DNA from: Bdellovibrio sp. NC01
Lineage (GTDB): Bacteria > Bdellovibrionota > Bdellovibrionia > Bdellovibrionales > Bdellovibrionaceae
Assembly: GCF_006874625.1 (NCBI RefSeq)
Contig: NZ_CP030034.1
Coordinates: 186,001-250,000, forward strand
Direction: 5' to 3'
Length of the DNA: 64,000 nucleotides
A model generated the notes under the pieces. It saw only the letters and a program-made list of their open reading frames with translations, had not been told where the DNA came from and searched no databases. Numbering within the stretch: position 1 is the first letter of the stretch; every line of letters starts with the position of its first letter. Of the stretch, positions 23,408-51,663 are shown piece by piece. The translations under genes were made by a program, and so were the position numbers.

Positions 23408-23484
23408 GGGGGGCTAGCTTAGTTGGTTAAAGCACGGTGCTCATAACACTGGGATCGGGGGTTCAAGTCCCTCGCCCCCTACCA
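23408..23484 (+). tRNA. tRNA with CAT anticodon (tRNA-Met, or Ile2)
   Basis: Complete cloverleaf with encoded CCA. Acceptor GGGGGGC/GCCCCCT, D-loop AGTTGGTTA, anticodon arm CGGTG-CTCATAA-CACTG, T-arm GGGGG-TTCAAGT-CCCTC, discriminator A. First acceptor pair is G-U. The CAT anticodon means elongator Met, or Ile2 if C34 becomes lysidine; the D-arm and variable loop look more like elongator Met. Not an initiator, since G1 pairs with U72. Confidence 0.9.
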
Positions 23485-28877: not shown

Positions 28878-28937
28878 TCCCAAACGCAAAAAACATTCTG
28901 CATCGGGACCTCTCATCCTCTATTTCTCGAAGGCAAA

Positions 28938-29075
28938 TTTTCTGGATCTAAGATTTTAGGCGTTAGCGTATGAGGCCTTCGCGGGGCCTGGATGGCCCTC
29001 ACCGCAAAGCGGTGAAGCGACGAGGCAGGAGGCCGTGCCGAAGCAGCTAAGGCCTAAAATCTTAGAGCCAGAAAA
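28938..29075 (+). repeat. Long palindrome-armed repeat element, copy 1
   Basis: 138 bp between convergent gene ends. Left arm 28938-28967 and right arm 29046-29075 are inverted repeats of 30 nt with two mismatches. They enclose a 78-nt core (28968-29045) that is nearly identical to the inverse complement of the core of copy 2 (51429-51568). The core contains an internal hairpin ACCGC-AAA-GCGGT (29001-29013) that is replaced by a different but still paired hairpin in copy 2. The 320-base gap from 28878 to 29197 holds only this element and the hairpin at 29111. Confidence 0.9.
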
Positions 29076-29110
29076 CCCCGCACTACGATAAACCAAAAAA
29101 AATGAGAGCC

Positions 29111-51399: not shown

Positions 51400-51428
51400 T
51401 CTTCAACTAGGTCTGTCGTGATGCGGGG

Positions 51429-51568
51429 ATTTGCTAGAGCGTAGAATTTAGCTTTAGCTTCTTCGGCACGGCATCCTGCCTCGTCGCTTCGACGCCGTTG
51501 GCGTCGAGGGCCATCCAGGCCCCGCGAAGGCCTCATACGCAAAAGCTAAATTCTACGCTCTAGCAAAT
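51429..51568 (-). repeat. Long palindrome-armed repeat element, copy 2
   Basis: 140 bp between convergent gene ends (51399 and 51664). Arms 51429-51458 and 51539-51568 form a 30-nt inverted repeat with one mismatch. The core 51459-51538, read on the minus strand, matches copy 1 at all but the internal hairpin (GACGCC-AAC-GGCGTC here) and two single bases. The arms are unrelated in sequence to those of copy 1, apart from the inner TTAGC/GCTAA edge. Confidence 0.9.
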
Positions 51569-51663
51569 TATGCCTTCGACTGATCTATTTAAATTTACGA
51601 ATGGATTAGAGAGTGGGGCGTAGTGAATTTGTTGGTGTGGGGTGGTTGGTTGGTGCTTTGGGG

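Follow-up and report, generated by a model that had tools for sequence, protein, structure and literature searches.

MITEs and the intergenic repeat units of the ERIC/RU type are non-coding palindromes of approximately 130-170 bp that lie between genes. Mitochondrial double-hairpin elements, GC clusters and the RHEs of sponges are mobile hairpin modules. Such modules increase in number within intergenic DNA, where they may become joined or nested (PMC2800124). In Pseudomonas fluorescens and E. coli, REPINs are short intergenic palindromes that are present in many copies per genome and are probably moved in trans (PMC3116915).

Here, a dispersed repeat of Bdellovibrio was compared with these systems. 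Like MITEs and ERIC/RU units (PMC2759123), the element is non-coding, palindromic, in the same range of length and located between genes. Unlike in MITEs, its outer arms differ completely among copies, the copies are mostly dissimilar outside the core and the ends, and no clear target duplication was seen at the one clean empty site. With the mitochondrial double-hairpin elements, GC clusters and sponge RHEs it shares the character of an apparently mobile hairpin module that multiplies and nests; it differs from them in its bacterial chromosomal setting, its three-hairpin core and its link to an IS1-like sequence. Its likeness to the REPIN/RAYT system (PMC3116915) lies in non-coding intergenic palindromes, putative single-stranded DNA hairpins and inverted doublets. 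Unlike REPINs, however, the element is approximately 160 nt long, has several hairpins in its core where REPINs have two conserved REPs, is free in its stem sequence and was not found next to Y1 transposases at the loci that were tested.

RESULTS AND DISCUSSION

Layout of the element in the window

Two copies of the element were compared in the window, which is the whole 64,000-nucleotide stretch of Bdellovibrio sp. NC01 that was analysed (Table 1). The element has short conserved ends and a long stem, of some 27-30 pairs, that carries a core. In this core, the three-pair stem S1 encloses the hairpin hpA, and the stem S2 branches into the hairpins hpB and hpC.

TABLE 1 Positions of the element, its parts and associated features (window coordinates unless a locus is named)
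Feature	Position	Strand	Basis
Copy 2, whole element, 164 nt, TCGTGATGCGGGGATTTGC to GCAAATTATGCCTTCGA	51416-51579	+	
Copy 2, 5' outer arm, 27 pairs with 51542-51568	51429-51455	+	fold
Copy 2, 3' outer arm	51542-51568	+	fold
Core stem S1, GGC:GCC	51465-51467 / 51530-51532	+	covariation among copies, fold
Hairpin hpA, GGCA-TCC-TGCC	51470-51480	+	covariation, fold
Stem S2, TCGC:GCGA	51484-51487 / 51524-51527	+	covariation, fold
Hypervariable hairpin hpB (internal hairpin of the preliminary description), TCGACGCC-GTT-GGCGTCGA	51489-51507	+	
Hairpin hpC, GGGCC-ATCCA-GGCCC	51508-51522	+	covariation, fold
Copy 1, whole element, 162 nt	28927-29088	-	
hpB of copy 1, TCACCGC-TTT-GCGGTGA	28999-29015	-	
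ORF upstream of copy 2, 167 aa	50896-51399	+	
Convergent ORF downstream of copy 2, 204 aa	51664-52278	-	
IS1-like insertion sequence, ~1.2 kb, ends near AAACTGATCC, 290-aa transposase	L396 1266-2494; also L403, L383, L384, L385, L386		
66-nt unit inside element loops, G011	L228 5020-5260; L230 7120-7380; L231 5020-5290		

The preliminary description, whose interval of 51429-51568 omits the short conserved ends of copy 2, had proposed an internal hairpin that differs between the two copies and is paired in both, a length shift of two, and outer arms that differ entirely yet pair with one mismatch. All of these observations were confirmed. On the + strand, hpB of copy 1 reads CACCGC-AAA-GCGGTG at 29000-29014, and the AAC loop given for copy 2 is the GTT loop read on the opposite strand. 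The core measures 83 nt in copy 2 and 81 nt in copy 1, and the arms of copy 2 form 27 perfect pairs, followed by one A.A mismatch and two further pairs. The core was also found to be common to both copies, as had been supposed. When 23-mers from the two sides of the core were searched with up to 3 mismatches, 2 matches were obtained in the window and 0 in 100 dinucleotide shuffles; thus, the shared core blocks are not due to chance. DNA folding of the copy 2 element gave -53 kcal/mol, compared with -25.2 kcal/mol (standard deviation, 3.2) for shuffles (z, -8.8).

No T-run was found directly 3' of the stem in copy 2, where TATGCCTTCGACTG comes next, and a Rho-independent terminator, which calls for a T-run at this place, was therefore rejected for this window copy, the only one judged. 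In Rfam, the element had no match at the gathering score or at E values up to 10. The sole Rfam match in the window was a tRNA gene at 23408-23481 on the + strand.

A dispersed intergenic repeat family of the genus

BLAST detected 15 copies in this genome at E < 0.1 (a further row among the 16 obtained is copy 2 matching its own other strand), and 26 copies were found with R1, a covariance model built from 13 copies. R1 matched in 22 of the 24 genomes of the genus and in none of 20 genomes outside it. With a second model, R2, matches were obtained in 15 of 40 genomes of the taxonomic family, 6 of them inside the genus and 9 (of 34) outside it. The matches outside the genus were weak, except for four in G035 (best E, 3e-9), which are possibly the nearest relatives of the element family. 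A pattern scan of a genome contig collection returned at least 119 stretches, 80 of which were taken as loci; the pattern was too loose for use across the collection, and most of these were chance matches in GC-rich genomes. Among the 80 loci listed, strong R2 matches were confined to L305 and L310, two contigs that belong to a single Bdellovibrio metagenome genome, and weaker ones were seen at L299 (E, 0.0012), L290 (0.047) and L279 (0.075). No match to the element was present in the phage and plasmid collections. As to distribution within a chromosome, this genome has 26 copies on a contig of 3.98 Mb, and 19 of them lie in its initial 1.2 Mb; the copies in G022 look evenly spread.

The copies are intergenic and mostly near the 3' ends of genes. 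By simple ORF calls, with orthologous copies counted separately, 155 copies fell into 70 convergent, 38 and 33 tandem (the two orientations) and 8 divergent contexts, with 4 over a crude ORF and 2 at contig ends. Where two copies were neighbours, they were convergent in 21 of 21 pairs, with cores 130-633 nt apart; 12 loci were fetched for holding such pairs, and several of the pairs are orthologues of each other. Orthologues of the 167-aa ORF upstream of copy 2 were found in 22 of the 24 genus genomes (this one included), and the element stood beside it at only one of these 22 loci, the window's own. Relatives were seen by eye to have this convergent gene pair at the window site as well, with little space between the genes.

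The element forms a new family of dispersed intergenic repeat of a known, REPIN/MITE-like kind. A search of titles and abstract openings, confined to journals outside subscription, returned no report on such repeats in Bdellovibrio.

Stems vary while loops are conserved

An alignment of 83 cores, 79 of them distinct, had 97.1% of its cells paired, and 19 of the 21 core pairs had changes on both sides somewhere. Cells changed on both sides numbered 205, compared with a shuffle mean of 53 and with 5-26 in slid controls; since the alignment had been made to follow the structure model, these counts are inflated in its favor. The conserved structure that had been argued from two copies is therefore supported by many more, and the one-sided, unpaired changes that would speak against it were rare at the core pairs.

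The hypervariable hairpin hpB had 45 distinct stems among 151 of the 155 copies (4 copies yielded none). Its loop was TTT, TTC or TGC in 127 of the 151 and one of the reverse complements AAA, GAA or GCA in 4. Among the 155 copies, the hpA loop was TCC in 131, TCG in 18 and undetected in 6, and the hpC loop was TCG in 76, TCC in 75 and undetected in 4. The core loops are thus strand-specific (TCC, TNY and TCS) while the stems vary. Two cores of this genome, L002 and L003, have an identical hpB stem with the loops TTT and AAA, respectively, as loop inversion would give. Beyond the core, a 5' end motif was found near 51 of the 155 copies and a 3' motif near 16 (controls, 3 and 0), and the arms were not conserved.

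Placement in an insertion sequence and nesting of a second hairpin unit

We favor, with a probability of roughly 0.55, the reading that the element is a non-coding, dispersed, DNA-level hairpin element, about 160 nt long and belonging to Bdellovibrio and its close relatives, that is kept paired partly by template switching and has spread non-autonomously. Its functional form would be single-stranded DNA or a cruciform, in which the loops may be the features recognised by a protein. Template switching in replication would copy changes from one arm to the other and probably helps to match the arms. The copies would have spread as a non-autonomous mobile element, partly by riding in an insertion sequence.

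In one subfamily of IS1-like insertion sequences, whose transposase is about 290 aa long, the right end contains the element. This transposase scored 44.1 and 37.0 bits against NF033558 (IS1 family), short of the curated cut-off of 100 for membership of that family, and was present in 14 of the 24 genus genomes. The element also occurs solo in genomes without such a transposase, including this one, from which the transposase is absent. The element was found at 8 of 25 transposase loci, always 3' of the transposase and in the opposite orientation. Sorted by transposase identity, it was present at seven of the eight loci with at least 57% identity, at one fragmentary locus (L406), and at none of the 16 others. 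At the eighth close locus, L386, paired arms surround another core: 3' of the transposase ORF (minus strand), the arms and ends follow the plan of the element, but the core that they enclose is unrelated and looks like the result of an exchange. G012 holds two near-identical copies of the element in broken copies of the insertion sequence. Direct repeats of about 8-9 bp were seen by eye at the outer ends of L383 and L386; none was clear in the other loci inspected.

The end of the insertion sequence, AAACTGATCC, was found with at most one mismatch beside 1 of the 155 copies, a count equal to one control window. Thus, the IS transposase does not account for the solo copies. The terminal inverted repeats that MITE copies would have in common with one another and with an autonomous partner were thus not found: the count was 1/155, and the arms are unshared between copies.

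In addition, a 66-nt unit with three small hairpins forms a second dispersed hairpin family, and 19 of the 24 genus genomes match it. Three of its four places in G011 (five rows) are inside a core of the element, and the G022 orthologues of these three loci (L228, L230 and L231) are without the unit. A more far-reaching version of the favored reading would be that these are layered bacterial hairpin mobile elements that recognise structure and not stem sequence, insert into the loops of one another, build up nested hairpins whose stem sequence changes, form the folded right ends of IS1-like sequences and have stems kept paired by template switching. We put this forward only tentatively.

Mismatch types point to DNA rather than RNA

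The element might instead be a structured RNA that forms the 3'-untranslated end of the upstream gene and serves in mRNA protection, in termination or through a protein such as CsrA, with selection maintaining the RNA fold. We consider this unlikely, even though several observations agree with it. In 74 convergent contexts (defined with a stricter ORF length than the 70 counted above), the 5' end of the element was nearer the upstream stop codon in 56 and the 3' end was the nearer one in 15, with 3 ties, which a sense 3'-UTR role would likewise predict. The covariation is strong, the orientation of the loops is kept, GGA occurs in hairpin loops of the opposite strand, and CsrA was found in every one of the 24 genus genomes.

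Were selection to act on a folded transcript, the transcribed strand would be expected to keep G.U more readily than A.C. The arms were paired in 153 of the 155 copies, with 6,025 Watson-Crick pairs, 155 G.T, 175 A.C, 595 other mismatches and 208 gaps, and neither strand was preferred in the mismatches. The arms are extended outward in many copies, and part of this mismatch count is background, since the outer part of extended arms includes unpaired flanks. Core pairs comprised 3,093 Watson-Crick, 27 G.T (18 of them at one pair), 17 A.C and 35 others. Tolerance of G.U over A.C was absent both in the arms (155 versus 175) and between orthologues (44 versus 36), although RNA would tolerate G.U. 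The two orientations were also about equally frequent in tandem contexts (38 and 33), the hpC loop TCG in 76 of the 155 copies leaves no GGA on the other strand, and neither a T-run after the stem of the window copy nor an Rfam match even at an E value of 10 was found. Judged from these sequence comparisons, the pairing apparently does not resemble selection on RNA, and we read the element as a DNA-level hairpin.

A CsrB-like sponge for CsrA, which would have GGA in all loops, was considered as a separate candidate and judged weak: the other strand of the hpC loop reads CGA in 76 and GGA in 75 of the 155 copies.

Orthologous copies in two collinear genomes

G011 and G022 are collinear, with approximately 90% identity. 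A site shared with a G022 copy was found for 23 of the 28 G011 copies, so movement is slow. Among the predicted pairs of these 23 orthologous copies, 1,328 were unchanged, 124 had changed on both sides and were still paired, and 188 were unpaired by a one-sided change; one-sided changes, rare at the core pairs of the aligned family, were thus not rare between orthologues. These 188 losses led to G.T in 44 cases, to A.C in 36 and to other mismatches in 108. With tighter flanks, 130 double Watson-Crick changes were counted, compared with a permutation mean of 31 and a maximum of 42. Double changes next to each other numbered 36, compared with 14 in permutations (maximum, 23). Half of the double changes (66 of 130) were of the transition type, and 64 of 130 were unreachable through G.U.

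In several orthologue pairs, the element diverged far beyond its flanks (for example, 0.327 versus 0.081); in others, it was nearly identical or less diverged than the flanks. This unevenness suggests discrete events. Template switching has been described as a source of compensated stems (PMC8794818), and it explains the clustered, G.U-bypassing double changes at least as well as selection on RNA does. The preliminary description had taken compensation as a strong argument for a conserved structure. The step from compensation to a selected RNA structure is not supported: the double changes are clustered, half of them bypass G.U, and G.T is no commoner than A.C.

Eleven copies were unshared between G011 and G022. 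One of them (L165) was a clean absence without a clear target duplication; three (L171, L162 and L200) were deletion remnants, partly deleted in the partner genome; and three (L150, L164 and L180) were whole in G022 and split in G011, where the 66-nt unit interrupts the loop of hpA or hpC. Four others (L153, L157, L169 and L189) made up the remainder. No clean whole-element insertion with target duplication was present among the 11.

A passive palindrome would offer another account, in which an old inverted repeat is paired only as a by-product of template-switch mutation, is free of selection for folding and has no present mobility. The clustering of double changes, the outward extension of arms in many copies, the sites mostly common to G011 and G022, and the partial deletions would all be in keeping with it. 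However, loops and core bases stay fixed while the stems change, the copy number and the strict convergent order (21/21) need a mechanism, and insertion sequences that have diverged from one another retain the element at a constant place. As a passive palindrome does not readily account for the conserved loops and the convergent order, we judge it quite improbable.

The Y1 transposases

In a further alternative, the element would be a REPIN of large size, and its movement would be due to a Y1 (HUH) transposase that works on hairpins of single-stranded DNA. This is very improbable, although Y1_Tnp genes occur in 21 of the 24 genus genomes and the 66-nt unit resembles REP hairpins: an R1 match lay within about 3 kb in only 1 of 40 Y1_Tnp loci, the 66-nt unit was absent from 48 such loci, and G007, G012 and G016, which are without Y1_Tnp, have 7-14 elements. 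The hairpin ends, the intergenic position and the inverted doublets resemble those of REPINs (PMC3116915). A scan of 18 Y1_Tnp loci for GTAG hairpins gave two chance-like matches. Since a Y1_Tnp neighbor was tested and not found, REPIN membership is not claimed, and Y1_Tnp/RAYT was ruled out as the neighboring partner by the 1 of 40 loci. Of the 24 genus genomes searched, G011 and G022 have the highest numbers of Y1_Tnp genes (10 and 12, respectively).

Implications

Compensated changes are usually taken to prove a selected RNA structure. Here, compensation is very strong, yet the mismatch pattern points to DNA, and caution is advisable, since covariation alone is insufficient to call such loci non-coding RNAs. 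The stem sequence of the element changes quickly while the folded shape is kept, which makes it a good natural test of the origin of paired changes. With more than 100 copies and 23 orthologous pairs, selection by way of G.U and one-event template switching can be tested directly against each other. On the favored reading, Bdellovibrio, a little-studied genus of predators, would gain a mobile repeat family of its own.
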